Shown in pieces: positions 6,288 to 63,700 of a stretch of DNA of 64,000 nt. Below the pieces are notes generated by a model. The model had not been told where the DNA came from. It searched no databases and saw nothing but the letters and a program-made list of their open reading frames with translations. The translations under genes and the position numbers were made by a program. The DNA is from Burhinus oedicnemus (taxonomy: Eukaryota; Chordata; Aves; Charadriiformes; Burhinidae): NCBI GenBank assembly GCA_008921705.1, contig VFFE01007669.1, positions 5,033,633 to 5,097,632 of the forward strand. Reading direction: 5' to 3'. Position 1 is the first letter of the stretch, and each line of letters begins with the position of its first letter.

Positions 6288-7013
6288 TTATTCCTTTATA
6301 AGCAGTTTCAGATAAGACATGATGTCAATAGCAGATGACCAAACTAGAACAGAACACTCTACAGGACTGAGATCTTGGGCCAGCTGAGAAATCTTTTTCT
6401 CCAAGGTATACCCTTGCCTGGCCATAGCAACGTCATCCTTCTTCAAAAACATTACTGGACATAAGTCATTCCCACCATCACCTATATATACAACTTGTGT
6501 ATAACTTACTCCTCGCTCCAACTGTTTATCTAGAAATTCTTTTAAAACTTTCCTTTTGCAAAGGTTTTTAGGGCACTTTGCACAATGGTGAGCATGGAAG
6601 TTCTGTACAGTAAGATAGCCAGTACTGCTGAATGCTGCAGGGTTTGTAAACACTTCATCAAACACCTCACGGAAGTCAGCAGCTTTCAAAATCCAGTCAA
6701 TAAATACTGTATTAGAATCTGAAACAATTATGCAGTCAAACAACTCTTTGTTCTCGCCAATAAAACCCAGAAGATCTACCATTCCCGCAGTGAAAGGAAT
6801 TGTTGTCATGGTCCTTTTCATCTCATCTTCTTTGACGCCATTGTCTCCCAAGTAGACAAAGACTCTGCCCATATATTCTGTCCAATGTCCTCGTTGGTAG
6901 GAGTTTCTTAATCCATTAGGAAGTTTTTTCTCAGGAGCACATTTCACAATCCAGGTATCACTATTTTCATCTATGATTGTATGGTCAAAATCAAAAACCA
7001 ACAGAAATTTCAT
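6288..7013 (-). CDS. PHOSPHO2: Pyridoxal phosphate phosphatase PHOSPHO2
   Basis: A HAD-superfamily phosphatase of the PHOSPHO family. Human PHOSPHO2 removes phosphate from pyridoxal 5'-phosphate. The protein is 241 aa, the same length as the human protein, and is encoded by one exon. HAD motif I is DFDHT at residues 8-12, with Asp8 as the expected nucleophile and Asp10 as the acid/base. Motif II is SDSN at 98-101. The Mg-binding motif IV is GDGGND at 178-183. Cysteine/histidine residues around 140-152 (HAHHCAKCPKNLC) are typical of the family. The ATG at 7013 follows an acceptor (ttctgacag|ctATG), so a leader intron separates it from a non-coding first exon in the CpG island near 8.05 kb. There is no signal peptide, so the protein is expected to be cytosolic. 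It is divergent from CFAP210, as in human. Confidence 0.98.
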   Translation of the reverse strand: MKFLLVFDFDHTIIDENSDTWIVKCAPEKKLPNGLRNSYQRGHWTEYMGRVFVYLGDNGVKEDEMKRTMTTIPFTAGMVDLLGFIGENKELFDCIIVSDSNTVFIDWILKAADFREVFDEVFTNPAAFSSTGYLTVQNFHAHHCAKCPKNLCKRKVLKEFLDKQLERGVSYTQVVYIGDGGNDLCPVMFLKKDDVAMARQGYTLEKKISQLAQDLSPVECSVLVWSSAIDIMSYLKLLIKE

Positions 7014-8124: not shown

Positions 8125-8137
8125 GTCGCCTGGCAAC
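8125..8137 (+). promoter_or_regulatory. CFAP210: X-box (RFX site) of CFAP210
   Basis: GTCGCC-T-GGCAAC is an inverted pair of RFX half-sites: one perfect (GGCAAC) and one with a single mismatch to GTTGCC, with a 1-bp spacer. It lies 33 bp upstream of the CFAP210 ATG. RFX factors control many ciliary genes, which fits a ciliary axoneme protein. Binding is inferred. Confidence 0.6.
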
Positions 8138-8170: not shown

Positions 8171-11100
8171 ATGGCGGCGGCGGCGCGAGCCGGGCGCCCC
8201 CGCGGGAGGCGGCGGCGGCAGCAGCAGGCCCGTGAGTGTGGCTTCTCCCGCGGGCACCGGGACCCGGGGCGGGGACAGCGCCGAGCCCGTAGCCGCACCG
8301 GCTGCAGAGGGCTCCGGGAGGCTGCAGGGGCGTTCCTTGTCCCCGTGTCCAGGGTGACTCCCCCGAAACCTGCCGGCAGCCAGACAGGCTGTTTCTCCCT
8401 AAAAATTACCTAGAAAGAACTAACCTGAAACCAGTGGAGGTACGGTCTCGTCAACAGCTGAAGCTAGAGAAGAACTGGGTGCCTGGCAGTTCCCTATCTG
8501 CAGGGAGCAGCGCGTCAGTGTACCTTTACTTTTGGCCAGGCTACCTTCACCTGGGGCAGAGCGAGATCATCAGGTCTGGTCCCCACCAGAAGAGAAACAG
8601 AACAGCAACTGCATCTGAAACACAGGCTTTGACATCAGTAGCGCTGTAAGAGAAACCCTCCTTACATTTTAGACGCGGCATGTCAGTCTGCTGCAAACCA
8701 GAAGGAGAATTTCTAAGAGGACACCCCTCCGTGCGGAGGGCCACTTCCTTTGAAAACGCTGGTGACAGTTTGAAGGGCATTTCACAAAACCTAGTCATCG
8801 CCGACAAAAGCTGTATTTATGCATGCACGTCTGTATGTAAGCCTAATACAACAAAGAAATGCTAATCTTTCCAACAAATCAAGAAACCGTTCTACCAGGC
8901 AGATCCATTTGAGTAAATACAATGAGCGTGCAGGAAAAAGGTGGTGACGCACAGCCTGTGCCCAAACTGCTGCCTCATCCAGCCAGAAAAACGGCATCAC
9001 CGATATTCCCCCTTTCCTTTTGGGAATGCTCCCTGGTCCCTGCTGTTCTCAGAATCATGCCCAAGTGGCTTCCCTGGCTGGGAAGCGTTAGTTACCACCA
9101 GCCAAACCTGTACGCACACACAAACAGGGAAGGGGACATACAAGCAGTTAAAGTCAGCCAGTGCCACAGCCCAAGCACATACACTGGCCGTAGTTAGACT
9201 GCAGATACGGACAGCCTGTCTTAGCTCTGGGGTACCGGGATGGGGAGCATACCTGTTAGGATAACTCAGTGTTGTTACTACGCAGGAACTCAAACCCCGA
9301 TACAGGTTTGAACGTAGGATTTTCTGGTATCAAGTCATCTCAGTTATCTTTTCTTTCCTCTGCACAGCATCTCATCATTTGGAAGAAAATAACGTTCTAG
9401 ATGGATATTTTCTTCCAAATGAAGTAGATCTTCATCAGGTAATTGTATTGCCGAAAGCAGAATGGGAAAGGATTCAGGACAATCTTGACAGCACAACTAG
9501 AGAAGCAGCACGCATCCTCGCTGAGAAGAAAGAACGAGAAGAAATGCACTTACGCTCCAAAGCGGCTGTAAAAGACTGGCCCAATACCATTATGGTAACT
9601 ACAAGATATATTTGTAAACAAGGGGATTCATTTTCACATATGCAAAACTCCTCATGGTTAACATCTCTAGCTGTAGTCCCTTTAACATTCGCTTTTTAAA
9701 TACAGATTTTAACTAAACTCCATTTAAATACATTTAACATCTAACATCAACATTTTAATTAATGCAAAATTTAAAAAATTCTTAAAAACCAAACATTGAG
9801 TACATCACCTTCAGAATGCTTTATACGTTTTTAGCCATGGGCTTTAAATGTGATTTCTCATTTTATCTGCACTGTAGGGCCTGGCACAACGGAAACTTAA
9901 AGCCAAAAAATTACGTGAAGAAAGGGAAGAGGAAGAAAGAAAGCGACTTGATTTGGAAGAAGAACAGTTCCAAGCAGCAAAACGGAAGGAGGCTATTGAT
10001 CATGCCAAAACCTACCTATACTATCAGAACGAAAGAGTGAAAGGGTTACATGTTTGTTGACAACTTATAACTTTTAAATTCAAATTGCACCGAATTTCTT
10101 TAAACACTTCTGAACATGCAAATTATTTCAAATGTTCTCTTGCAGAGTGCGCTTCTACTTGCTGAGGTCCTAAAAGAAAGAGATGCTCAAGTTGAATTTA
10201 AAAAGTTAAAGTCAGATGTTAACAAAAAGAAGGATGAAGAAAAGGAACATGAACATAAAGAAACCATTCTCAGAGAGCAAGAAAAGGCTCATCAGCATTA
10301 TATGAATCAACAGGCACTACGCAGAGATCAGCTGGAACAGTAAGTAATAATTAATCAAAAGTAACCCCACTTTATTATTTACTTAAACTCTCTTCTCACA
10401 AATACATTCTGTAAGGTTTTTACAGAAACTTATTAATAATTTGATTCACAAATGTGACACTTTGAAAGAAAAATCCAGAGTGCCACAAAAGACCTTGCAT
10501 GAAAGGGAAAAGCTGTGATACGCAGTGTCTTTTATTTGCCAACAGTCTGCATGTAAAATCGCCTCTGGTAGGCATCAATAGGTTTTAATCAAACCATTAT
10601 TCAAAAGTTGTTACTGAAAGTGTACTTTAGCTCAGTTTTGGTCCCAGAAAAGGAAAAGGTTAAACCAGATTTTCCATTTGCCCGTAACTAGATTCCAGAG
10701 AACGCAACAGGAGAACGCATCACTGCCACCTCCATTCTTCCTCTCAGCTCTTACAGAATCCCTATGGAGGGGTGTCCAGTGGTATTCATAGGACTGGCCC
10801 TGGTGGTCTGGCAGAAGGAATCAAATTTCCTGAGGCAGAGGAAGGGTTCAAAGTCTGGTCTCACATATTCCAGGTCCAACACATAAATCCTTGCAGAACT
10901 TAGTATAGAACACTACCAGTTTAAGCTGTTGCTTGCATGACCAGAAGGAGAAGCGTAGATACGGTAGGACTTACTGGGGAAATCTTGTTCACTGAGAATG
11001 GTGCAGAGATAGGCCAGAACATTAAGAATGCAGTGGTGCTAATGGGTCATCCAGATAAAACTTGTTACCACTGGACCGCAAGCTGTGAGCATACCATACC

Positions 11101-14100
11101 TGATTTCTGGTCAAAGGATTGAGGGCTACCATTACAAACAATGATGCTATTTTTCACCTCTGATATTCCACCCACCTTCAATTCAAAGTACCACATCCTT
11201 CAGTGCAAGGTACCTATGGTTACGCAGAATCTCTATCTGTTTGTTGTTTCATGCAGTCCCTAGCTCATTTATTCAACTCCTTTTTCTGATTCAGAATAAA
11301 GGAGCGCAAACATCAAGCAGATCTGGCCAAGCTAGAAGACAAAAGAGAAGGAGAACAAATACAGAGATTGAACCAACTGTACCAATTGGAAATTCAGAGA
11401 AGAATGGAAAAGGAACAGGAGGAAAAAGCTGAACGCCAGAGGCTGTATCACGTAAGTAACGGGAAAGCAGACAGTTCAAAATGCTTGTTTCACCTTGGCT
11501 GCCTGGAGTGAAACAATAGCATTCATACATCTAAATGGGCCCACTGGCAACACGTTTGCTGACAGCTTCAGTAGCCTTGGATCATATGCCTACCCTGCCA
11601 GATGCAGGCCCTGTCTTTCCTCTGTGCTTTTGAGAAAGGCCTCTTGGAGGCAGGTCCCTCCTCTTGTCTGAAGGGACATTGGCACCTGATGCTTTGACTG
11701 GCCTATGATTAAAAAGTCTGCTATTGACATTAAGGAATATTCTCCTTGATTTGAGAACTGGATTTAAGTTCCACATACCTGCTGGTTTAAGCCTATTTTT
11801 CTTTGTTAGGAACAGGGAACAGCCCGAGTCTGAACATAACAGTATCTTTTTAACTTGTCTTTCCCTTTATGATTGGAGAGGTTTAGAAATTTAGTCAAGA
11901 CGTACTGCCTTCTCTCTTCACCTTTAAACGCATCTTGCTAAATACAAGCCTCAGAACAGTTCTGGCCAGCATACAAAAGAAGGGGTTTTTTACATAAAAT
12001 TACAGAAAACTCTTCTTCAGCTACGATTTGGATTAAGCTCTCAGGCTGGGATAGTTTTGGATGAAGTGGGCCAGGAGCAGCATAGTCTGTGCATGTGTTG
12101 CTGGTGGCTGCACAGTCCCATTCCTCTCAACGTCCCCCTCTCCCACATGTGTGAATGGGATCAGGGGATAATGCTCACTGCATTGCACAGCAATTTGTTT
12201 GTGTAATGGGCTGGAGAAGCAGCTGTTCGATGCTCAGTTCGCCTTCTCCTTCCTCATATCTACTGTCTCCTCTTCATGCATGTTTGAACAGGGAGGCAGA
12301 AATAAGTGGAAGTACTGAGAACCCCTTTCCTCTCTTCTCTCTTTGAAAGAAACACAAAGAGAGAGAATAGGGAGTGATTTTTTTAAGTTGCTACCCCAGG
12401 CCAAGATTTTCTAGACTTCATCCGTTATATCAGGACCATTTTGCCTGTGCAGGAGCATGTCAATGACCAGAAAGCGATCAAAGCAGTAGAGGAACAAAAA
12501 CAAATGGAAGAAGATGATCGGATTAAAGCTCATTTTAAAGCAAAGGAAACTATTGCCAAGCTGATAAAAGAGAAAGAAGCTGAAATGCGTAGGTAGGTAC
12601 AACGCTAAATTGTAAATAAACTAAAAATTATACTGTACATATTCAAATCTTTCAGACTGATGATGTAATACAAACCACAGTTATTCTAGAAATTAAATTC
12701 TACTCATAGGGAGAGTAGTTAATGAAAAAAGGAAATTCTTTCACAGGTTCCTTAGTAATAGCTGTGTGTGTGAGCAATCTCTCCACCCTTCAAAGTACAA
12801 AGACTTACGGAAGTGCAAAGCTCAACACCAGTGTTCTGGGAACAGCGATTTTCCATATGGCCTGCCAAGCCTCCGCCTCCTCAACAACTAAAGACAATTA
12901 AAATCCTTGACAAAAGTATTTTTGGGCATCAGCTATATTTGCCTGAGTCAGACCAAGAAAAATAATCCGAGTTCTTAACTAGGCACCTACATTAATTAAT
13001 TTACATTGGGTAATTATTAAGGGAAGATGGTTTACCAATTTAACAGTGAGGGTACAGCATGAAGATACCATTGAGCCAATCTAAGAGCTCCCATCTCTTC
13101 CTACTTCTGGCCAATACTCCCAACATTTCTCTCCTCATGGCAAGATGCTAAGCAGACTCCTCCCCAAGTGATCCAGGTCATTATTGCAACAGAAAGCTAG
13201 TGTTACAAGAATACAGGGAACATTTAAAAACAAACAAACAAAAAACAAACAAAAGAACCCAAAACCAAAACAACAAAAAAACCCAGGAGGAAAACAAGGA
13301 GATCAAGGAGGTGGGTGGGTGGGTGAGCAGGCCTGTGTGGCAAGACGAGGGAAGACTGGAAGCAGGATTGCTGAGTTTGGTAGAAGTAATGCTTCAGGTA
13401 GACCCAGGTGTGTACCCTGGTATGTTATGGTACCTCATGTTCTTCTGCAGGCTAACACAGGAACATCAGAACAAAATCGTTAGCCAATTAGCTGTACAAA
13501 TGAATGAGGCATTAAAGAGGGAAGATGATCGTCTTGCTAGAGACATTAAAAAAAAAGAAGCTGAACAAGAAAAAAAACGCAGAGAGAAAGAGGCAAAAGA
13601 AAAGGCAGCCCTTGAATCGATTGCTGAACACAGAGCCACTGTGGTAAGAAACCTAGCCTGTTCTTAGTCCCAGATCCTGGCCCAGATCACAGCCAGTGGC
13701 CCTGGTGCCATGCATCAGCATGCTTCATCAGGTCCGCTGACATCTCTCGTGGGGTCCTCTCTCCCTCTCCCACTTCTCTGTTGGGCACACATCTGCCAGG
13801 GCTGCTGAAAACCCTGGACTTGGACACTAGCCAGCCACAATGACTGTGCTTATCAGAACAGTGATACAGGGCTGCTTCTGCTGAAAGATACGACTTCCAA
13901 CTTAGCAGGCTAGCTCCTTGGTTAACTTTTTTGTGTATTTTGTAAAATACAGATGAAGATGAAAGTGGAAAAGGAGAGAGAGGAAAAAGCAGAGGGTAAA
14001 AAAGAACTTCATGCGTTAATGGAAAAGAACCGCATCTACTTGGAAATGGAAAAAGCCAAGAAACAAAGACAACGTGACGCAAACATGGAAGTACAGAAAA

Positions 14101-14948
14101 TTCAGATCCAGCAAATGGTAAATAGAAGCGCTGTACCCTGTCAGCCCCTTCAGAAAGAAGCACGCATCTAGACCAACAGCACTAGCTCCTGCCTGAGAGG
14201 AAGAGAGAGGAAGCTTGCTGTGTTTTGTTTGGGGGTTTTTGTTTGTTGTTTTTTTTAAATCAGGTATGCTCCACATGTACTGGTGTTGGGGACCAGCCTC
14301 CTCTCAGAGCAGTGCTGCGAGTCAAGGCTGGTTTCCAAGGAGAGGTCACATCCTGCCCTGTGCCATTATGTACTACTGCCGCCCTCTTGTATCTTCTGGG
14401 CAGATCACCAACAGCAGCAGCTGATGCTGATGTTCACTGAGCTATTTAATGTACCCTTCTTGTGGGGGGTACGGCAGAGCAGAGAAGTGGGGAGGGATGA
14501 TATTTGCCAAGTATCAACAAACATCATCACAGATCTCCTGTAAGCTTTTACCCTCCCTAAGTTTTAAGGGATAGTTATGTTGTAAAAGAAACACTAAGCC
14601 TTGCTATTCCCTTTTCTTCATCAGGCTGAAAAGCAGGCAAAAAACCAGCAGGAAAAGCAAGCCGACTTGGACTACGATGCTCAGAGAGAGATGATTGCAC
14701 TTTGTAATGAGCGTGAATTTCAGAGCTATGCAAAGCAAGTAATTGAATCAGAGTCCAAGGCTACACATCATCTTTATCCTCTTCTCAAAGCATCCAAAAA
14801 TGGAAGAGGACTTGGACATGGGCCATTTTCCAGAGGAAGAAAAGGAATAAATACTAGTTCTCAAGCTCAGGATGATACTGGGACCCAGTATGCACAGAAT
14901 GATGCTGGGGCCTGTACTACTGCTCAAGAAGTTAAAAACATTAAATAA
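8171..14948 (+). CDS. CFAP210: Cilia and flagella associated protein 210 (CCDC173), complete, 9 exons
   Basis: A coiled-coil TPH-domain protein. CFAP210/FAP210 is known as a microtubule inner protein of axonemal doublet microtubules. Exons: 8171-8231, 9368-9594, 9878-10051, 10146-10339, 11295-11451, 12453-12592, 13451-13643, 13953-14117, 14625-14948. All have GT-AG borders and consistent phases (exon 1 ends in phase 1; exons 4 and 6 in phase 2; the others in phase 0). The exon 3 donor, CAT|gtttgt, is weak. The spliced frame is 1,635 nt, or 544 aa plus stop; human CFAP210 is about 550 aa. After an Arg/Ala/Gln-rich start (MAAAARAGRP) and a conserved PNEVDLHQVIVLPKAEW segment, the protein is almost continuous Lys/Glu/Arg-rich coiled coil, with EDDRLAR and KIQIQQM blocks. 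It ends in a non-coil Gly-rich tail after LYPLLKASK. Exons 5-9 are repeated in a shortened tandem copy 7 kb downstream. Confidence 0.95.
11100..14850 (+). repeat. Segmental duplication, parental block (within CFAP210)
   Basis: This block, from within CFAP210 intron 4 through most of exon 9, is repeated in direct orientation at about 17950-21430. Introns align in patches. For example, the sequence before exon 5 (from about 11225 vs 18109) and before exon 8 (13680-13952 vs 20309-20574) is nearly identical, while other intronic stretches cannot be aligned by eye. The left breakpoint is approximate. Confidence 0.8.
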
Positions 14949-14997: not shown

Positions 14998-15003
14998 AAT
15001 AAA
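14998..15003 (+). terminator. CFAP210: Poly(A) signal of CFAP210
   Basis: A canonical AATAAA lies 50 bp after the CFAP210 stop codon, giving a very short 3' UTR. Confidence 0.7.
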
Positions 15004-15009
15004 ATATAA

Positions 15010-16400
15010 TTTTTAAACCTTATGGGCAGAGTTAAACTGTAAGTGATCTACTCCATATATGCTATGAATCTAGAAGTCCATTTGAAAAAAAAAAAAAATT
15101 GCCAGAGAACTGGTTATATTCTCAAAAAATCCCCAGCTTGTATTTCATGAAAGTTACTTCATTAAACTTGAGACAGAAATGCATGATATGTAATTGACCA
15201 TCACTGTAACCCATTCCATCCAAAAGCTCACTATTACTGTTATGTTTTTATTATTCTAAAAATTCACTGTCCCAGATTTTTCAGGCCTAGGATACGAATT
15301 CCCAGTGCAAAAGGTCGCATTTTTCACTAGCCCACTTCCAGTTAAGTATTCCCCATAATAGAAAAAACCAAAACAGCTTTACAGAATCTACAGGGGAAGA
15401 AAAAACGATCTAATACATGTGAAATTTAGAATAGTTATGGTGCTGCAGTTTTTATAGCATTTTGCAACTACCTCCAAAAAACAAATGTCATGCTATAAAT
15501 TAGTTATAATAAATGAAAATACAAATATTATTTGATCACAGCCCTTAAAAGGTCACCTAGGAGGCAAACAGTTCCCAATATAGCTGTAAATAGCTACTAG
15601 AAAAAAAGCATGGCAACAAGAACAACATAGTTAGACTGTTCTTTCAAAAAGGATAACAATGATTCAATCTGCGGTAAATAATCTGGATCTAAAATTGTTT
15701 CTCAGATTCTTCAGCTGACTTACTCTCCAACACCAAAGTCACACACACATCTCACTCCTTAAGCTTAGTTTCTTTGCTGAAATTTTACCATCGTGTTCCT
15801 GCATCGGACAGAGTTAGGGTTTCCTATAATGACTTCCTCCACGAGTATCCGGGGTCTAAACAGGATATCCCCCTGTTCTGCCATCCACTGAAAACAAAGT
15901 CCAAGAAACTTGAAGCTTTGCTTTGTTGCACACAACCTTCTCTTCCAGCCCCCCAGCTGCCCGTCTCTGTTGGCCAAACTAGAAAATTACGTAAGTTCTA
16001 AAAAAAAAAAAATTAAGAGCATTTTATACAGAGGATGCTTGACAATATTTTAGTTTGGAAAATGGGTCTTTTGCATGCCTTCAAGTTTCTAAGCCTGGCT
16101 TCTGACAGCAACAGGCTTTGAAGAAAGCACAGGACTTTGCGCAAGGTGGGAGGCTGCCCGAGAGACGAGGTCCCTCCTGCAAGCTAAGGGCCAAGCAGAG
16201 CTGGCTTTACCTCCCCTGCAGTGCACAACAGCTGGATGCGAGATGGATGTACTCCTTCCCGACTGCAGCAGCCACCTCCTCGAGGAGTCTCTTCCCGGCA
16301 GGGCAAGGGAGCAACTTCTGGAAGAAGGGGGAAGGACCGACCGAGGAGCTCCCTAGGGCAGCCAAGGGCCTTCCTCCGGGAAAACTGCGCCCAGGGGCCA
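15010..16400. other. Spacer between CFAP210 and its tandem copy
   Basis: AT-rich from 15.0 to 16.0 kb, becoming GC-rich towards the island at 16.4 kb. No exon of CFAP210 or another gene is recognised. Confidence 0.6.
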
Positions 16401-17560
16401 CCCTTTAAGGTCAGGTCATGGAAAAGGCGAGTTCCCAACAACCCCAGCGGCAGGCAGGCCTGGCGGGATGAAGATTACGTGTGAGGGGCGGCAGCCCACA
16501 GAGCCGGGCCCAGCCAAAAACCCACGGCGCCGGCCGCGCAGAGCAGAAGCCAAACAGCGGGAAGAAAAGCTCGGAGCAGAAAGACTGAGGCAGAAGAGGG
16601 GGGTGTGTGTGTATGGGGGGGTGGGTGTTAGCGTGTGTGTGTTAGTGTGTGTGTTACAGCCTCTTACAGGCTCGCTACAGGGCAACGGGTATTCCCCGAA
16701 CCAGCTGCGGAGGAGGGCGGCTCCCGCAGGCCTGCGCCCGGGCTCGGCGGGGCCGGGGCCTCCGCGGTGAACTCTGCCGCCCGACTCGGGCCGGGCCACG
16801 GAAAGGAGGGGGAGGGGAGGGAAGGGGAGGGAGGCGCCTCAGCCGCCGGGCCAGGCCGAGCCTCTCTGCCTGAAGGTGCGGGCGGTGCCCGCCGGCAGCT
16901 CCCGGCGGCGGGGCGGGGCGGGGTTGGGCGGAGCGCCGTGCCGTGCCGTGCCGCTATAACATCCGCGGCACAGCACCCGCCTTTGTCCCTGTTGTTGTTC
17001 GCTCCTCAGGTAAAGTCGTTCTCCCCGCTGACACTGCTTGCCGCGGCCGCCCTTGTTCCCCCTCCGGGGGCGGAAGAGCGAGCCCCGACTTGCCGGGACG
17101 GCCGGGCCCTCCCCTTCCGTAAGGATCCGTCTTTTTCTCTCGGCAGACGTTGCCGCTTCCCGGAGAGGCAAGCGCTGGGCGCAGAGCCGGCCCGCGGCGG
17201 AGAAGGGCCGACGATGGACCGCGAGGGGCCGGACGCAGCCCGCCGGGAGGCAGAGCTGGAGCGCGGCCGCTACTTGGCCCGCCGGGCCGTGGCCCAGGAG
17301 CAGCTGGCGCAGTGAGTCCGGCGGGGCCCGTCCGGCGGCGGGGCCATCGGGAGGGGAATGGGGTTTGGGGTAAAAACAAAAAAAAACAAAAAAAAATTCT
17401 TCCCGTGGCCAGCTCCGGGCTGCCGGGACCCGCCTGCACCGCTGGCGGGGCTGTGGGCAGGCAGGGCAAGAGTGGGGCTTATTTGGGGCTGAGACCGCTC
17501 CGGGCGAGCAGGCTCCGCCCGGGCCGCCGCGGCGGGGGGGGGTGCGCCTGGGGCTGCGTG
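16400..17560 (+). promoter_or_regulatory. CpG-island promoter of the CFAP210-like gene
   Basis: A strong CpG island directly upstream of and over the new first exon. It contains a GT-rich microsatellite (about 16601-16655), a G4-type run (16808-16831), three CCGTG repeats (about 16936-16952) and a TATA-like TATAAC (16955-16960). A CTCAG|gtaaag donor (17009/17010) and a ctcggcag acceptor (17146/17147) imply a leader exon of unknown 5' end and a 137-bp leader intron. I find no good X-box, only separate half-sites (GGCAAC at 16681-16686, GTTGCC at 17149-17154). Confidence 0.65.
16808..16831 (+). promoter_or_regulatory. G-quadruplex-prone G tracts
   Basis: Five runs of three or more G separated by one or two A residues lie on the plus strand, about 150 bp upstream of the TATA-like element of the CFAP210-like gene. 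Quadruplex formation is inferred from sequence only. Confidence 0.5.
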
Positions 17561-20500
17561 ACTCGCTTCTTTTACACCCTTGTTTCTGATTGCCCCGCGC
17601 TCCGTGGTCAGGCTGAAAACCTGTCACCTCTCCTCACCCTCTGTTTCCTCCGTGACTGTTCTCCAGCTTCAGAAACGTCTCTTGTTGCCAATGGCTATGT
17701 CTAGCCTAATGAATTAAACAAGACGGTCTATATTGTGGTATTGAGAGTAAGTGGTTTGTCTCCCTAAGGCAAAAACTCTTTATTATTGCTGCTTCCCCCC
17801 AGCCCAGAATTGTCTAGCACAGACTGATGACCACGGCTTGCACAGTGCTGTGGCACTGCTTGGAAGGCAGTGGGGTGGGCTAACAATTAAACAGCCTAAT
17901 CAAATTCAGTCTAATATTTGAGTCCATATGCTTGTCATGTTTGCTTTTGCTAGCATAGGCTTAACCAGCACCCTTGCACTAGGACTAAACTTTAGACAAA
18001 GGATTTGCAGCTACCTTTTAAAAACTGTGATTCTGTTTTTGACCTCTGACATTCTACTTTCACTTCAAAGTATCAATTTTTTTACTGTTAAAGTACCTGT
18101 AGATGTGCAGAATCTCTATCTGTTCGTTGTTTCATGCAGTCCCTAGCTCATTTATTCAACTCCTTTTTCTGATTCAGAATAAAGGAGCACAAGCATCAAG
18201 CAGATCTGGCCAAGCTAGAAGACAAAAGAGAAGGAGAACAAATACAGAGATTGAACCAACTGTACCAATTGGAAATTCAGAGAGGAAAAGAAAAGGAACA
18301 GGAGGAAAAAGCTGAACGCCAGAGGCTGTATCATGTAAGTAACAGGAAAGCAGACGGTTCAAAATGCTTGTTTCACCTTGGCTGCCTGGAGTGAAGCGGT
18401 TGCATTAGGCCCACGAATAAACGGGCCTACTGGCAACAGGAGGTTTGCTGACAGCTTCAGTAGCATTGGATCATATGCCTACCCTGCCAGATGCAGGCCC
18501 TGTCTTTCCTCTGTGCTTTTGAGAAAGGTCTCTTGGAAGTTGTAATGTGGCACCTGAGCTTTGACTGGTCTATGATGGAAAAGTTTGCTATAGGCAGCAA
18601 GGAGATTGTTGTTGACTTGGGAAATGGATTTAAGTTCCATGTACCTACTCTGTTTTAAGCCCATTTTCTGTTGTTAGGAAGAGGGAATAGCCTAAGTCTG
18701 AACATGACAGTATCTTTCTAACTTGACTTTCCCTTTGTGATTGGAGATGCTTAGAAGATTAGTCAGTACCTGCTTACCAGACTTACTGTTTCCCTCCCCA
18801 TGCCTGCTTGAGCAGGGAGACTGAAGTGGAGGTACTGTGATGATTCACTGGCATATGAGAGAGTAAGAGCAGAGAATTCCCACTGAAACTTTACTTGCTT
18901 CCCCCCCCATCTCCTTCTCATCTCAGTTACACAAATCTTACCCCATTTGCCCCCAACCTTGTCTATGCAATAAAAGCTATATATACAGTTAGAACTGCTG
19001 CTTCTGCATGATTACATGCTTTGTGCCTTACGTTTTTATGGTTCTCACTGTTTGAGCCCTTCAGAGTCTGTGCTGTGTGGAGGATACACAGGATGGGAGC
19101 AGTACAGTTGGAGCCAGTGGGGAAGTAGAGGAAAGAATATAACTTAAAGATACCGTGCTTAGTGCTGCAACCACATACTAATTTTACTTTTGTGGTAGTT
19201 TGTGGTAAGTAGGTCATAAGAATTCTTTTCTGTGTCTGGGTTTCTGTCTTCTATAGCTTCTCCATTGATACAACCAAAGAACTCTTATTATAAGCTAGGC
19301 CTGAAGTCTTTGCTGGATTTTTTTTTTCCAGTTCATATTTCCAAAAATCTCATTCTACATAAAAATAAAAGTACTTTTCCGTTTAAACAGGAATATGTAG
19401 CTGAGCAGAAAGTAATTAAAGCTGAAGAGAAACAAAAAGAGGATGAAGATGATGATCGGATTAAAGCTTATATTAAAGGAAAAGAAATGATGGCTGATCT
19501 GACAAGAGAAAAAGATGCCAAGACTAATAGGTGGGTCTAGGGCTGCGGTTTTCAGCATGAAGATTCAAACTTGCAATTTAATTTTGTGACAAATGTTACT
19601 CTGAATTTTTACATCAGCAAAATCAGTTCTTTGTGATGCAAGCAATTTTTCTGTAATTAAAACTTGAAAAAGTAGTAGAAAGTCCAGAAGAAATGCCTGT
19701 GAGTTCCAGTATTAATTGGTGCTGTTGGGGGTGAAAGTGGGATTGCTGGCTTTGTTAGGAGCAGTGCCTCAGGTAATCTGAGCGGATATCCTGGTATGTT
19801 ATGGTAGCTCATGTTCTCCTGCAGGCTAATGCAGGAGCATAAGGACAAAGCTTTTGAAAAACTAACTGCACAGATGAATGAGGCATGTAAGATTGAAGAT
19901 GATCGTCTTGCTAGAGGAGCTGCAGAGGTAGAAGATGAATACCAAATGAAAAACAAAGAGAAAGAAGCAAAAAAAAAGGCTGCCATTGAATCTGTTGCTG
20001 AACACAGAGCCACTGTGGTAAGAAACCTAACCTGTTCTTATTCCCCTTTCTGAGATGTACTTCTGAATACCTTTTAGAAACACCATAGATTCTAGCACAG
20101 CCGTCTTGAGATGTACATGCAAGTTGTCACTTAGCAGCTGCCTCTCATATTTACCATCTGTAGTTTCAGAATTAACTTATTAAGAAAGGTGCACGTGGTA
20201 CATGTGATGATCCTGTCTCAAAAAATTAGAGTTGGAAGGCTCTATAGTTGTTGGTAATTAGTGCAAACATTTTCCAGGCTCTGCACTGCTTACTCTAGCT
20301 GAGGAGCCTGGCCCAGATCACAGCCCATGGCTCTGGTGCCATGCATCAGCATGCTTCATCAGGTCTGCTGACATCTTTCCTGGGGTCCTCTCTCCCTCTC
20401 CCACTTCTCTGTTGGGCGCACATCTGCCAGGGCTGCTGGACTTGGACACTGACCAGCCACAATGACTGTGCTTATCAGAACAGTGATACAGGGCTGCTTT

Positions 20501-21350
20501 TGCCAAAAGATACAACTTCCAACTTAGCAGGCTAGCTCCTTGGTTAACTTTTTTGTGTATTTTGTAAAATACAGATGAAGATGAAAGTGGAAAAGGAGAG
20601 AGAAGAAAAAGCAGAGGATGAGAAGGATCGTAATCAGTGGATGACAGCAGATCGTATCTACTTGGAAATGGAAAAAGCCAAGAAACAAAGACAACGTGAC
20701 ACAAACATGGAAGTACAGAAAATTCAGATCCAGCAAATGGTAAATAGAAGCACTGTACCCTGTCAGCTCCTTCAGAAAGAAGCACGCATCTCAGACCCAG
20801 AGTACTAGATCTCCTGGGTGGGAGAGAGAGAGAGGAAGCTTGCTGTGGGTGCGATGTGTGCATTTTGTTTGTTTTTTTACCTGTGATCACTGCAGGTGCT
20901 GATGTTGGGGACCAGCCTTCTCTCACAGCAGTGAAACAGAAGCCTCTTCCAGGCTGATTTGGCCCATGCTGGTCGAGCAGGATTACCTGGGAGGGCTGGT
21001 AATAAGAAAAAGGTCAACAGTGGCAGATCACATCCTGTCCTGTGTCATTATACCATTTTTTTCAACCATGCCACTACTGCTCTCTTGTATCTTCTGGGCA
21101 GGTCACCAAAGAGCAGCAGCTGATGCTGATACTGACTTAGCTATTCAGTGTTCCCTTTTTGTGGGGGGATATGGCAGCGGAGAGAAGTGGGAAGGGATGA
21201 TGTTCGTCAAGTATCAACTAAGTATCAGCTAACATCCCTTTTCTTCATCAGGCTGAAAAGCAGGCAAAAAAACAGCAGGAAAAGCAAGCAGATTTGGACT
21301 ATGATGCTCACAGAGAAGCTGCTTTTCATAAGGATCAAGCATTTTGGTGA
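17214..21350 (+). CDS. CFAP210-like chimeric protein: new first exon plus duplicated CFAP210 exons 5-9
   Basis: A partial tandem duplicate of CFAP210. Exons: 17214-17311 (new), 18178-18334, 19391-19530, 19825-20017, 20575-20739, 21252-21350. The last five correspond to CFAP210 exons 5-9, and all internal duplicated exons have exactly the parental lengths (157, 140, 193, 165 nt) with GT-AG borders. The new exon starts MDREGPDAARREAELERGR and ends in phase 2 (GCGCA|gtgagt), exactly the phase needed to join exon 5. The spliced frame is 852 nt, or 283 aa, with no internal stop. Identity to the parent by eye: exon 5 49/52 residues, exon 6 25/46, exon 7 39/64, exon 8 44/55. The last exon diverges after LDYDA and stops at 21348-21350, about 75 residues before the parental end. 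The retained part is coiled coil, so tubulin-lattice binding is possible but the N-terminal region is lost. It could be a functional paralogue or a transcribed pseudogene; the intact frame favours function. Confidence 0.72.
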
Positions 21351-21430
21351 TGAAGACAGTGAGTAACTGAATCAGTGCCATTACTGGATATATTTTTCTA
21401 TTCTCCTCTCCAAGCATCCAAGCAAAGGAA
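17950..21430 (+). repeat. Segmental duplication, derived block
   Basis: The direct-repeat partner of 11100-14850. Its intron before the exon 8 equivalent keeps about 250 bp (roughly 20045-20305) that has no counterpart in the parental intron, so one copy has gained or lost sequence there. Confidence 0.8.
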
Positions 21431-21440
21431 CAAGGTGTGG
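21351..21440 (+). pseudogene. Decayed remainder of CFAP210 exon 9 in the tandem copy
   Basis: Beyond the new stop codon, sequence still aligns with the parental last exon: gtaactgaatcag matches gtaattgaatcag, and a pyrimidine-rich block ending ctccaagcatccaa matches ctcaaagcatccaa. The frame is lost. This places the 3' end of recognisable duplication near 21.43 kb. Confidence 0.6.
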
Positions 21441-23159
21441 GCTTCCTAACCAGGACAACTGCAAAAGCAAGAGTGGCAGTGTATACGTGTGCAGTATTCA
21501 AAAAAATTGGGGGGAGGCAGGGAAGGATGGTTGATGTAACAACATCCATGTTCATCCTGCCAGATGTACACGAGCCCCCAGCTTGCTCAGGGACTGAGCA
21601 AACACTTGGCATTGTGTAGGAGTGTTACAGCTTGCGTGCCCCTCAAAGCCCTGCCTGAGGGCAGGGCCAAGAACTCTCCTCAGAGCCAGCACAGACCCAG
21701 GTATTGTCTTGATTGGTCAGTCCTGCTGTGGTCTGGGCTGCTGCACAGTTTTTGGACAGCAGGATATGGCTGGGTGGAGCTGACTCCCTGTACCCATGTC
21801 AGTTAGCATGACCCATAAGGGGCTCAGTTGTGGGGTGAGGAAGTTGCTGCTGAGAACTTGACACCCATGATGCATGCATTTCGGAGTTTTTGCCCAGAGT
21901 AGCTCCAGCCCGGTGTCAGGGCTGAATGCCCATCACTGGTTGGAGCACAACTTCCTCTTTGAGTTTCATCCAAGAGCGTCCAGTTTGTGATCGCCCTGTA
22001 ATGTGAACCAAAGCACAGTAAGTAGGAACAATCAAGAGACTTGTTTCAAAAAGTCATTTCTGACGTAAACTAAAATGCTAACGTTGCTGCACTATCAACT
22101 AAAAGTCACACAGAGTTCTCTCCAATTATCTTGGAGTAATTGATTTTGGAAATGATATATTTAAAAAAAAAATAGAGACATGGCAATTAACTTGTGAAAT
22201 TGTTTCTAAATATGTTTTTTCTTAGTTCACTAATGAAAAATTTATTTCCATTCTCTCTGAGCCAGTGCTCCTATTACTACTTGAAGCTTTTTTCAGCAAG
22301 CAGAAAGAATGGAAACTTTCAATAAAAGCCTTTTGATTGCAGAAGCTGGAGCCTTGAGAAGAAGCATTGATTACAGTAGAAGTGGTGTTGAAATCTGCAG
22401 AGCTTGACAGTGCTCCACATGCATCCCTAAGTGCATATTTGCACATGCTCGCTACCATGCAATTGGTGAGTTGAATGGGATTTAGTCTACCTCCACAGCA
22501 GCAAGAAGCAAGGTGGATTGCAGCCTCATTTCCTACTCAACTTCAAGAAACACCCTGTTCTGCAGATTGTGTATATCTGCAGTTGAAGTCTACAGCCTGC
22601 TTCCATGGGGCTTATACACCTTTTACTTTGAACATCTACAGAAATATCAAACTCAAGTACCAGAAAACAACTCTTCCTTTCAGTACACCTAGAGTGAAGT
22701 AGGAATCCAGTGTAATTTTAAAGCACACTGGCTAAATATGGATTTAATTACTCAAATTCAGCATGAAAAAAATCCAGCATGAATCATGATGTCACTTGAT
22801 TCCATTGACTTTGAGATGCACGTTTTGTGTGCTTGCTTTAAATGACTAACTCTAGTTAGTAATCCTCTATAAAACTAGGCAAAAAAACCCTGTAGTGTTT
22901 TAAGACCATAAAGAAATACTTGAGGTTCTACAACTTTCAGTGACAAAGCATTTTGGTAACATGTCATTGTCTTTTACAGTTGTCTTACATGAAAGGCAAG
23001 AATGGAAAGCTGCTTGCAGGAATAATACAGAAGACTAAAACCAGTTTGATGTTTGCAATATGTTGAAGAAAACAGGAAAGAAGACAGGGAATAGGCTAAG
23101 AGAACAGCTCTGTGTGCAAGTAGAAGCAGGTGAAAGCTATTGAACAGACTGAGATGAGA

Positions 23160-25107: not shown

Positions 25108-25250
25108 TACTATGTAAAGGAAAAACAGGCAAAGGTTAGAAAGCAGCAACATGTACTGGAAGAAGCAAGCAATAGCTACTGAGTGGACCAGAGACAGGAT
25201 CAAAGGCGTGAGACTGATAAGATCTGGGAAATACAAATCCAGCAACTGGT
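25108..25250 (+). pseudogene. Possible decayed extra copy of CFAP210 exon 8
   Basis: Read in one frame, the stretch is Lys/Gln/Glu-rich and ends EIQIQQL followed by gtacag. CFAP210 exon 8 ends KIQIQQM followed by gtaaat. The last 27 nt match at 21 positions by eye. A stop codon (tac-tga) interrupts the frame. No neighbouring exon relics are found, so chance similarity of coiled-coil sequence is possible. Confidence 0.3.
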
Positions 25251-31959: not shown

Positions 31960-34900
31960 TCATCCGTGCCTGTCGTCATCTGTTCCAGGACTTGTTTCAT
32001 GATCAGACTTTTTATCCTTACTAGGGGCATGATCTCTTTCCTGACTCTTTGATTTTTGGTTTATTTCCTTTTCTGCTGAGGATCTGGTCTTTTCCTTTTC
32101 TCTACTGCTGCGTGAATATGATTTTTTTGATTCTCTCTCTTTGCTACTTGTTCTCTTTTTTGAGTCTGGACTTCTATCCTGATCTCTACTAGACTTCTTA
32201 TCTTTACTAGATTCAGGACTGCTACTTTCATGGCTTTTGGAACGCCTCTTCCTTTGGCTTTCAGTATCATTCCTCTTATATGAGCTTCTACTTTCTCTAT
32301 TCGAATACCTCTCTCTGTTTCTGCTTTGACTTTCCTCCCTCTCCGAGCTCCTTGATTCTCTCCTCCTCCTATTTTCTCTTCCTCTGTATTTATCTGGTGT
32401 ACCTCTCCTTTCTCTGCTTCTTGATCTTCCTCTTCTTCTTGTTTCTCTATCTCTATTCCTTGAATAGTCTTTACTTCTACTGCGATCTCTGTCTCTGCTT
32501 CTCGATCTTCCTCTCCTACCCCTATCTCGGCTTTTGCTTCGATCCCTTGTTCTACTGCTGGAACTATGTTTTCCTCTAGCATGCTCACGCTCTTTGCTTC
32601 TTGACTTACGTTTCTCCCTGTCTTTACTCTTCCTATGGTCTTGTTCGTTACTTCTTGAACCTGCCCTTTTACTTCTCTCCTTGCTCCTACTTCTTTCTTT
32701 ATCTCTCCCCCTAGAATCATAGCGCTTTTCTTTTTCTCTACCCTTCTCATGGTCTCTGTCTTTGCTTCTTGATCTTACTCTCTTTTCATCATGTCTACTG
32801 TGCTTAGAGTCTCTCTCTTTACTTTTTGATTTCTCTCGGCTTTTACTATGGCTTCTAGATTTAGCTCTTCTCTTGGCCTTGCTTTTGTTATGCTTGTCAT
32901 CTTTTTCTGAATTCCTTCTTGTCTCCCTGTCTTTACTGCTGGATTTGTGATCTTTTTTCTTCTCCTTTTCCCCTCTTCTGCTTGGACTTTCAGAAACTTG
33001 TCTGTGGTCTGATATTTTTCTCTCTTTTCCTCTTCCTGGGCTTTTTTGATTATCTTTCTTGTTTTCATTTATTTCACTCCTTGGAGAGAGAAAGATACAA
33101 TTTTTAAAAATATTTTGAATCCCCTCCACTCCGAAAAAATAAGTCAAAAATAAGACAGCATTACAACTGAAACTTAAAATCACATTAGGTCATCTATATT
33201 AATAACTATGTATTTACAGTAGCATTATTAAAATCAGACACAGTTAAGGAATGGGATAACCAAGTCAGCACCCTGTTTTTTGGGAGTAACTGTAATTGAA
33301 TATCTAAGATGACAGGTATTACTTTTAATATATAAAAAATTTTCAATGCATGTACTCTGGAAAGAAATATTCTTACTTGTCCCCTTTTATCCATCTTTCT
33401 CCACTAGATACTCTCATTCTTTGAGCTCTTTGCATTTCTTGCCTCCAATGTGGAGGAGTTTCACTGCGTCGGAATCGATCTCTTGACCTGGATCTGGAAG
33501 GTGTCCGATAACGCTTGAAGGGAAAAAGAAATATTGGGTATAAGTTTGAATTTCACATGCTGTGATAGCTAAGCAAGGTTTTTATCCCTGGCGGTTGATT
33601 CTACATAGCACCTAACATGATGCTTCACATGTATATACCAAGTCTACACCGACAAGTTACTAACTTACTGAAAAATATATTTGACATTCAGCTGAAGCAG
33701 GAATACAAAATGTCTGATCAAATAACTATTTTTAAGGTAACTTCATTTTCAGGATTTTTGTACTCTGCTGACAGGTCTTCTGTTGCTTTTAATTAGCACA
33801 AACGCAACTCATTTTTCTAATAATGAAAATTCTTCTTAGCTTTGACAAGCAACACAAAAACAATACTTCACACAAACGTTTTTACTAAAAATTTGAGGGA
33901 TAGAGACTTCTGTTACTAAAACCATTTGCGACAAACAGTGCATAGCATGTGGCTTCACAAAATCAGAAGAACCAATCTGACAGTCTTCCCCACATTTCTG
34001 GCACTGATGTTGTACTGGTTCTGGTGTTCACTAGAACCCTTTTTGAGCTTATCTCATTCACTAATTCACAGAATACTACAGTGACAGAAAGCATTTTTTG
34101 TTTTTTCTCCCCCTCCTCCATCAAATAATTTCCTGTTTGCATACTGAGTTTAATTTAGTTTTCCTTGTTGTCTTCCTTCAAACCTCAGTCCCCAAATCAA
34201 TTATGATGCACCATAAATCCTGTTTTTATTTTTTTTAATAGAATCAACCATCCTAATGAAAATGGTAACACCAGCAGTAAGACTATGCTATGACCTTGTT
34301 TCTTTTGGAGAACAGATTGTAAACATTTACCCTTGGTCCTCTTCCTTTTATTTTCCTTCCAGATCTGGTCACTAACAGCCTCCTCTGGTATGTTGACTGT
34401 GAATTCGATAGATTACTAAAAATAATTTTTAAAAAGTTATATTGTTTATAACATCAAAGAAAGAAGGAATGACAAAATAAAACCAATTTTAAAACCTCTT
34501 CAGAAATTGAACTAAATGCAAACACACATTTAATTTTATTTTTTTATTGTCAGTGCAGACAGTAACACAACCACACAGTAAAAACTTCAGATTTTGTGAC
34601 CAAAAAATATTTTACCAGATTTCCATGTTCTTCCATTTTTGAAAGAATAAATTATAGATTCAGATTGGACAATTCCAATAAATTCTAAATGAAATTACAA
34701 TGCATTTTCCTTTCTTTTTTTGAATCAGTCCTTTTAATTTTTTCACTCACTGAAACCATTTTCAAAGACTAAGCCTTTGTTCTAGGACAAAAACAACAGT
34801 TAACCAATAAACTGAAAAATCCATTTTTCATCCAGAAGTGGTCACAACATGGAACTGTTTAATAGGGAAAGAACTCACTTAACATTAGAGTCCTAAAACA

Positions 34901-52914: not shown

Positions 52915-54690
52915 AGAGAACAGGGTGAGAGAGAGAAGGAAAAAACTAGAGAAAACGTGGGCCCACTATTGAATGAGACAGGGGCTATGGTGATAGACGG
53001 AGAGAAGGCGGAATGACTGAATGCCTTCTTTGCTTCAGTCTTTACTGCTCAGGCCAGCCCTCAGGAGTCCCAGACTTGGCAGGTAACAGAGAAAGTCTGG
53101 AGGAAGGAGGACTTCCCCTACATTGAGGAGGATCAACTTAGAGATCAGTTAAGTAAACCGGACATCCACAAGTCCACGGGTCCTGATGGGATGCACCCGC
53201 GAGTGCTGAGGGAGCTGGCAGAAGTTGTTGCTGGGCCACTCTCCATCATCTTTGAAAGGTCCTGGAGAACAGGCGAGGTGCCTGAGGACTGGAGGAAAGC
53301 CAATGTCACTCCAGCCTTCAAAAAGGGCAAGAAGGAAGATCCGGGAAACTACAGGCCAGTCAGCCTCACCTCCGTCCCTGGAAAGATGATGGAACAGCCT
53401 ATTCTTGGTGTCATCTCCAAGCATCTGGAGGAAAAGAAGGTGACCAGAAGTAGCCAACATGGATTCACCAAGGGGAAGTCATGTCTGACTAATCTGATAG
53501 CCTTCTACGATGGCGTGACTGGATGGACAGATGAGAGGAGGGCAGTGGATGTTGTTTACCTTGACTTCAGCAAGGCTTTCGACACTGTCTCCCACAGCAT
53601 CCTTGTAGGCAAGCTTAGGATGTGTGGGTTGGATGAACGGACAGTGGGGTGGATTGAAAACTAGCTGGCAGATAGAGCTCAGAGGGTTGTGATTAGTGGC
53701 ACAGAGTCTAGTTGGAGGTCTGTGACAAGTGGCGTTCCCCAGGGGTCAGGACTGGGTCCAGTCCTGTTCAACATATTCATCAATGACCTGCATGAAGGGA
53801 TAGAGGGCACCATCAGCAAGTTTGCTGAGGACACAAAACTGGGAGGGGTGGCTGACACACCGGAAGGCTGTGCTGCCATTCAGCGTGACCTGGACAGGCT
53901 GGAGAGTTGGGCAGAGAGAAACCTAATGAAGTTCAACAAAGGCAAGTGTAAGGTACTGTACCTGGGGAGAAATGTACCAGTACAGGTTAAGGGCTGACCT
54001 GCTGAAAAGCAGCTCTGTGGAAAGGGACCTGGGAGTCCTGGTGGACAACAGGATGGCCATGAGCCAGCAATGTGCCCTTGGTGGCCAAGAAGGCCAATGG
54101 CATCCTGGGGTGCATCAAGAGGTGTGTGGCAAGCAGGTTGAGGGAGGTTATCCTCCCCCTCTGCTCTGCCCTGGTGAGGCTGCACCTGGAGTACTGTGTC
54201 CAGTTCTGGGCTCCCCAGTTCAAGAACAACAGGGAACTGCTGGAGAGGGTACAGCAGAGGGCTACAAAGATGATTAGGGGACTGGAACATCTTTCTGATG
54301 AGGAAAGACTGAGGGACTTGGGTCTTTTTAGTCTGGAGAAGAGAAGACTGAGGGGGGATCTCATCAATGCTTACAAATACTTAAAGGGAGGGTGCCGGGA
54401 CGATGGCACCAGTCTTTTTCCAGTGGTGCCCAGTGCTAGGACAAGAGGTAATGGGCACAAACTTGACCATAGGAAGTTCCATCTGAACATGAGGAGGAAC
54501 TTCTTTACTTTGAGGGTGGCAGAGCACTGGAACAGGCTGCCCAGAGAGGTGGTGGAGTCTCCGACTCTGGAGACATTCCAAACCCGCCTGGACGCTATCC
54601 TGTGCAACTGGCTCTAGGTGACCCTGCTCTGGCAGGGGGGTTGGACTAGACGATCTCCAGAGGTCCCTTCCAACCCCGGTGATTCTGTGA
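52915..54690 (+). mobile_element. 5'-truncated CR1 LINE with reverse-transcriptase remnants
   Basis: A CR1 non-LTR retrotransposon, cut at the 5' end and inserted antisense in the PPIG leader intron. Reverse-transcriptase blocks are visible in order: STGPDGMHPRVLREL, NYRPVSLTSVPGK, YLDFSKAFDTV (first catalytic Asp), [18 protein letters not shown] and a FAEDTKL motif. Two stops interrupt the frame near 53014-53016 and 53662-53664, and frameshifts lie near 53.99 and 54.07 kb. The C-terminal part is open from 54072 to 54617. The family motif is normally FADD; here the first Asp is Glu. The element ends with the CR1-type GATTCTGTGA followed by an A-rich stretch. It is dead but relatively young among the CR1 copies here. 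Confidence 0.93.
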
Positions 54691-62990: not shown

Positions 62991-63700
62991 CCGTTCCAAT
63001 AGCCCTCTCTTAAGCCAGCGCTTGCGGATACCTCGCGTCCCGCGCCCCGCCGGGGCCGCGGCTTGGGCCTGCCGGCAGCTGGGCCCTGCCCGCCGCCCTG
63101 CCCCGCCGCCCCGGGAGCCCCGCGGGCCCCCCCTCAGAGCCCTCCGCCGCCACCTCTCCGCCCCGGCGGGCTGGGGCACGGCCCCGGCAGCGCCACCCTA
63201 CCGCTGTACTCCGGCGGCGGCTGCCGGCACGGGCGGGCGGGCCGGCACTGCGGTCCGGGACCCTTTCCGCAGCGGAGCGAGGCGGTTCCGGGGGGCCGGG
63301 CCCGGAGCTTCCTCCCGCCAAGCACGGCAGTCCCCTCTTCCTCCCAGAGCGTAGGTGCTTAATGCAGCCGCCGTTGGGCTAAACGTGGCCGAGGGAGCGC
63401 CGGGCAGTGGCGGGAACCGAGCCTAACGCTGCGGTTTGCCCCCTGCCTGCGGCTGGAGGGCAGCGGGACCCTGGCCGCCTGCTCCTCTCCCTGCCCGCCG
63501 CCGCCTTGAGGCCTGTGCGGCGGCTCAGCCCCTTCCCCCGCTCCTGCTGAAGCGCTTCTGGGTCAAAATCTCCCCGCAGGAAAGGAGGAGGCGACCGGCA
63601 GGTGGGAGCAGGCGGGCTTTCCGCGGGTGAGCCGGCGGTGCGGGGCAAAGGCAGGAGAGGAGGTAGGCCGCTGCTGGTACCCGCGTGAGTGGATGTTGTA
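62990..63700 (+). promoter_or_regulatory. CpG island, probable promoter of the next gene to the right
   Basis: A second dense CpG island about 2.5 kb from the PPIG island. A good plus-strand donor (TTCCGCGG|gtgagc, about 63621/63622) could end a non-coding first exon. In human, FASTKD1 lies head to head with PPIG, so a plus-strand FASTKD1 start is expected here, but no coding sequence is visible to confirm this. Confidence 0.45.

Follow-up and report, generated by a model that had tools for sequence, protein, structure and literature searches.

The 64-kb stretch of DNA that was analyzed (the window) carries, on its plus strand, the gene for CFAP210 (8171–14948) followed by a real, well-formed truncated tandem duplicate of that gene (17214–21350) with its own CpG island. 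We favor, with somewhat better than even confidence, the interpretation that this copy arose long ago by tandem duplication of the 3′ portion of CFAP210 rather than by fusion with a new exon. It would run from the 3′ half of exon 4 into the beginning of exon 9 and have inherited its splice phases from the parent, a step that is well supported. Its transcript would encode a 283-aa α-helical protein corresponding to the middle of CFAP210.

Gene models of CFAP210 and its copy

On the minus strand, the window contains a BTB–Kelch gene at 766–1995, presumably KLHL23 from its place in the gene order, a PF06888 phosphatase gene at 6288–7013, which we take to be PHOSPHO2, and an arginine–serine-rich gene at 31960–33183 that has no Pfam match and is assumed from gene order to be PPIG. 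A reverse-transcriptase fragment (RVT_1 domain) at 53191–53664, presumably of the CR1 type, is the first of two open pieces of what we take to be a CR1-type LINE (53191–54617). Both this element and the order of the genes are indicative of a bird.

Splice modeling gave parental CFAP210 (CCDC173) an open frame of 544 aa in nine coding exons (8171–8231, 9368–9594, 9878–10051, 10146–10339, 11295–11451, 12453–12592, 13451–13643, 13953–14117 and 14625–14948, plus strand), with GT–AG at all junctions and an AATAAA at 14998, past exon 9. The predicted protein matched CFAP210 chain 7ung_o from the PDB with a phmmer E value of 4.2e-115 and contains the Pfam TPH domain. Scanning the 64 kb with the RFX X-box consensus given in PMC5752003 returned two exact matches. 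One of them (GTCGCCTGGCAAC, 8125–8137, plus strand) is in the parental promoter, 34 bp 5′ of the ATG, within an island common to CFAP210 and PHOSPHO2. The other (53227–53239) falls within the CR1 stretch.

The copy comprises six coding exons with an open frame of 283 aa and no stop. The first, of 98 nt (17214–17311), ends in phase 2 and is collinear with exon 4 at 10242–10339; it is followed by the copies of exon 5 (18178–18334), exon 6 (19391–19530), exon 7 (19825–20017) and exon 8 (20575–20739), all exactly equal in length to their parental counterparts, and by the start of exon 9 (21252–21350), where the stop codon comes 75 residues earlier than in the parent. The internal junctions are all GT–AG and the incoming phases read 0, 2, 0, 2, 0 and 0. 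The splice model, junctions and matching phases thus bear out the six-exon anatomy and uninterrupted 283-aa frame proposed in the initial annotation. The first coding exon ends in phase 2, as described there; its donor is weaker than that of the leader, agreeing with the consensus at six of nine positions. The start codon has A at −3 and G at +4, and the spliced leader (16960–17213) contains no upstream ATG. The first AATAAA after the stop within 21350–22700 (22321–22326, plus strand) is a candidate poly(A) signal, as a sequence match only. In place of the lost introns or broken frame of a processed or dead pseudogene, the copy has kept its introns and its frame is open.

Splice-anchored scans of the window with exon 2, exon 3 and the initial 75 nt of exon 4 found no copy of any of them; the copy therefore either breaks off within exon 4 or has decayed past recognition 5′ of there. 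The second-best match in the scan with the start of exon 2 was an inverted repeat inside exon 2 itself (9368–9429): over its first 75 nt, the exon agrees with its own reverse strand at 49 positions.

A further stretch, at 25189–25248, looks like the 3′ end of exon 8 (reading ...QIQIQQL before a GT) and was considered as a possible relic of a third exon 8. Its last 60 nt scored 38 at the protein level against 20 for the next site, placing it third among 6,745 GT sites, behind the two genuine exons; when 120 nt were compared, its protein score ranked only sixth. A third CFAP210 copy ending at 25248 was left unconfirmed, as there is an in-frame stop upstream and 4 of 500 DNA shuffles did as well; splice-anchored scans of exons 2–9 yielded no companion relic exons.

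Age, gene conversion and selection

Identity between parent and copy varies sharply along the duplication. Among the exons, it is 96% in exon 5, which lies inside a near-identical tract, 72% in exon 6, 76% in exon 7 and 87% in exon 8, where a divergent block occupies the middle of the exon. Intron 7, which carries a 257-base insertion, is 92% identical over its aligned bases, intron 8 is 81% and intron 6 only 52% identical, while the second half of intron 5 is unalignable; in introns 4, 5 and 6, unalignable stretches lie beside tracts of 92–98% identity. Ks is 0.09 for exon 5, 0.80 for exon 6, 0.32 for exon 7, 0.35 for exon 8 and about 0.47 for exons 6 and 7 combined. The longest identical run in alignable columns, at 90, was reached in 0 of 2,000 permutations, and identity in windows of 100, 200 and 400 columns was more extreme at both ends than in 1,000 permutations. 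By these permutation tests, identity is uneven beyond chance, as looked for in a tandem duplicate with conversion.

Because the high Ks of exons 6 and 7 stands beside near-identical tracts, the copy is most likely an old duplicate that was later patched by gene conversion. Conversion would have equalized short tracts, with statistical support for exon 5 with its flanks and for intron 7 to exon 8, and exons 6 and 7, outside these tracts, would have kept diverging. The description of the gene as new is doubtful, given a Ks of about 0.47 in exons 6 and 7 and the unalignable intron stretches. For zebra finch, PMC12047795 gives 5.0e-9 mutations per base and generation, with 2–3 years per generation. 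If that rate applied, a Ks of 0.47 would correspond to very roughly 100 million years, a figure good only to an order of magnitude because of the small samples and conversion. At about that age, the copy should occur in many birds. Two local features were also observed: a block of copy exon 8 (20617–20658) diverges between near-identical flanks, and at residues 221–222 the copy retains the A-D common to mammals and sea urchin, where the parent has changed.

The dN/dS comparison proposed in the initial annotation gave an ω of 0.46 for exons 5–9 (bootstrap 0.29–0.72). Exons 5–8 contain no indel in 655 bp, against 21 events in 1,434 bp of alignable introns; 9.6 would be expected at the intron rate and 4.8 (P = 0.008) at half that rate, in which half of the indel events are assigned to the branch of the copy. 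At half rate, 3.4 frame-shifting indels would be expected (P = 0.033). Exon 9 has one in-frame 3-base gap, and its differences up to the divergent end are at third positions only (5/5). Replacements numbered 60 where 75.4 were expected without selection, and only 1 of 3,000 simulations was as low, a deficit that is partly the constraint on the parent itself. At the 62 differing sites in exons 5–9, only the parent agrees with an outgroup at 23 and only the copy at 11. Four mammals and sea urchin have 56 invariant columns in common, of which the copy keeps 26 and the parent 30. Both genes have thus changed, the copy about twice as fast; constraint on the copy has weakened, though it has probably not vanished.

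The same data bear on an unlikely but serious alternative, that the copy is a decaying pseudogene whose frame stayed open by chance or was re-seeded by conversion in exons 5 and 8 and whose island gives a noncoding transcript or none. Decay would fit the ω of exon 7 alone (0.89) and of exons 6 and 7 together (0.60, 0.35–1.09), whose upper bound passes one, as well as the longer branch of the copy in these two exons (0.44 versus 0.21 for the parent), the loss of the conserved tail and the lack of an exact X-box in the island. A frame without a stop would survive 56 random substitutions with a probability of 0.066, falling to 0.006 after 112, and exons 5 and 8 could owe their intact sequence to conversion from the parent. 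Decay is harder to reconcile with exons 5–8 that are free of indels beside introns that are not, with splice sites that are all retained and with the confinement of exon 9 differences to third positions. Retention of the frame suggests a coding function in the past.

Origin of the first coding exon and its CpG island

The 98-nt exon very probably descends from the 3′ half of CFAP210 exon 4, as judged by comparisons in the collinear register. Aligned without gaps to the last 33 residues of exon 4, it scored 40 (BLOSUM62) with 9 of 33 residues identical, a score reached by 2 of 200,000 shuffles. When the shuffle test was repeated, 0 of 50,000 did as well with the bird parent, 37 of 50,000 with human CFAP210 and 315 of 50,000 with cow. 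The collinear window was the best of 512 windows of parental CFAP210 (40; next 23) and also the best in human (27 versus 19), mouse (29 versus 19) and cow (19 versus 18); it was not top-ranked in the 9cpc chain or sea urchin, and hence led in three of the five CFAP210 sequences from outside birds. Profiles from which the copy was left out agreed. With the parent included, the exon added 16.6 bits (0 of 1,000 shuffles and 0 of 148 other CFAP210 windows as good), and with all bird sequences removed, leaving mammals and sea urchin, it added 13.6 bits (1 of 1,000 shuffles and 0 of 148 windows).

Nucleotide comparisons pointed to the same origin. The exon agrees with the last 98 bases of exon 4 at 45 positions, a level attained at none of the 300 other GT sites within the parent gene; for shorter ends, 0 of 300 sites did as well with the last 12, 40 or 60 bases and 1 of 300 with the last 20. 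When the 6,741 GT sites of the window were ranked, both strands included, the exon came first after exon 4 itself, with margins at 98 nt of 35 versus 15 for protein and 45/98 versus 43 for nucleotides; with 75 nt, the lead shrank to 30 versus 26 and the nucleotide comparison was tied at 35. Identity to exon 4 falls from 20/33 at first codon positions to 15/33 at second and 10/32 at third. Third-position GC rises from 0.34 in the end of exon 4 to 0.94 in the 98-nt exon, and overall GC from about 41% (mean of the three codon positions) to 79%.

The initial annotation had the duplication start inside intron 4 and described a chimera whose first coding exon was newly supplied. Such a gene, with an unrelated CpG-island exon ending in phase 2 by chance, is improbable. 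It would explain why BLAST-level similarity of copy and parent begins only at 17997 (parent 11112), in intron 4, and why so GC-rich an exon has fewer than half of its bases in common with exon 4. Searches that left the register free also missed the likeness: when the 33 residues were aligned locally with the first 218 residues of the parent, 148 of 2,000 shuffles did as well, which is not significant; the 33 residues alone had no PDB match; and in a six-frame scan of the window with profiles built without the copy, the segment was not listed. Against it, every test in the collinear register, whether by protein, profile or nucleotide, indicates exon 4, and the phase and donor position of the exon equal those of exon 4. 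A match to the 3′ end of exon 4 would place the start of the duplication upstream of intron 4, and the proposed chimera gives way to an exon that is most likely the GC-enriched 3′ half of exon 4. With that origin, the phase-2 match would be inherited and not coincidental. The copy exons could in principle also be an alternative 3′ end of CFAP210, as parental exon 4 is phase-compatible (phase 2) with copy exon 5, but this is very improbable, since it would require a skip of ~7.8 kb past parental exon 9 and the AATAAA at 14998 and would leave the CpG island and the exon-4-like first exon unexplained.

Under the favored duplication from within exon 4, the exon 4 piece, now very GC-rich and lying inside a CpG island, would serve as the first coding exon, and the island would act as the promoter of the copy. 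The presence of this island at the first exon, claimed initially, was confirmed at 16376–17725, with 75% GC and a CpG observed/expected ratio of 0.90 over 16700–17360; in all, five islands in the window reach 400 bp. A candidate untranslated leader exon (16960–17009, plus strand; start approximate) has TATAA at 16955 and the donor CAG|GTAAAG, the sole GT in 16900–17330 that agrees with at least seven of nine donor consensus positions. The proposed leader intron (17010–17146) ends at a good CAG acceptor and is plausible from its splice sites, which also define a candidate untranslated part of the second leader exon (17147–17213, plus strand). Compared with the 5′ part of exon 4, the latter was equaled by 97 of 1,000 and 790 of 1,000 shuffled leaders with two profiles, too many to indicate descent from that part.

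No exact RFX X-box was found in the island of the copy (16376–17725); the best one-mismatch site lies at 17684–17698, with 0.58 such sites expected by chance. Its absence is mild evidence against the copy being regulated like a typical ciliary gene; some ciliary genes have no X-box. The island was also compared with that of CFAP210 and PHOSPHO2, which showed no likeness beyond that of shuffled sequence (132 of 200 shuffles in forward and 45 of 200 in reverse orientation were as good), though permissive BLAST returned 48 bp at 75% (E = 2.4e-4). Separately, 17068–17346 resembles 63064–63345 in opposite orientation (score 36 versus a maximum of 35 in 200 dinucleotide shuffles). The match is gapped and about 60% identical, both sides are GC-rich CpG-island stretches, and the resemblance is probably due to composition.

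Predicted protein and its possible role

Residues 9–276 of the predicted protein align without overall shift to residues 197–464 of CFAP210 chain 7ung_o. The E value was 1.6e-33 (phmmer) with both 7rro_o and 7ung_o, a relation extending over the coiled core. Of the five distinct chains at E ≤ 0.001, four are named CFAP210 or CCDC173 and one is a TPH-domain protein; the TPH domain (PF13868) scored 52.7 bits against a cut-off of 27. The copy thus shares with CFAP210 the straight coiled middle (human residues about 197–464) and the TPH domain, and differs in missing both ends, in the composition of its first exon and in having no exact X-box. It is without 186 N-terminal and 75 C-terminal parental residues. 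The N-terminal region, including the elbow near CFAP52, was not found in the copy by the splice-anchored scans, and the lost C-terminal tail is one that aligns from bird to sea urchin.

The lost ends correspond to contacts described for CFAP210 elsewhere. In mouse sperm (PMC10663601), CFAP210 forms long helices with a 48-nm period in the B-tubule, its N-terminal elbow crossing B07–B09 beside CFAP52 and the rest lying between B06 and B07. The account of human cilia in PMC9564825 has CFAP210 binding near B07–B10, with FAM183A linking it to CFAP45. For trypanosomatids, PMC7617938 describes CFAP210 as a core inner protein whose C-terminus is bound by CFAP106B, the end that the bird copy is without. 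The same source offers a parallel in RIB72 A–D and CFAP106 A/B, paralogs that occupy common sites or alternate between them and are likewise duplicated inner proteins beside the product of a parent gene; these are near full-length and seen in structures, whereas the CFAP210 copy is truncated and known from sequence.

The protein of the copy could still occupy the tubulin cleft of CFAP210 in the B-tubule, if the middle part suffices for binding. Without the N-terminal part that bends around CFAP52 and the conserved tail, it is not expected to build the normal 48-nm chain, to transmit the 48-nm register or to dock CFAP106. The expected role would be that of a substoichiometric or tissue-restricted accessory. 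From the sequence, the chance that the copy has an expressed function is about even. A more specific proposal, in which an internal coiled-coil exon was absorbed into a CpG island and became the first coding exon of an expressed and selected ‘core only’ CFAP210, is speculative and on balance doubtful. Such a protein would reside in the doublet microtubules of cilia or sperm, lacking the ends by which the parent sets the 48-nm chain and docks CFAP106.

5′-truncated tandem duplicates that gain a promoter are a general class. The CFAP210 copy is like them in its truncation, new upstream CpG island and open frame; by contrast, in the copy an internal exon itself lies inside the island and is GC-rich. 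In the PubMed Central articles consulted, no description of a bird CFAP210 copy was found, and annotations of bird genomes may well list it. If it is not expressed, the copy is an ordinary truncated duplicate, one that warns how a plain exon can turn so GC-rich that its ancestry is masked. Should it be expressed, the copy would yield an inner microtubule protein of a bird that has neither end of its parent, and with it a natural experiment on the region of CFAP210 that determines doublet periodicity.
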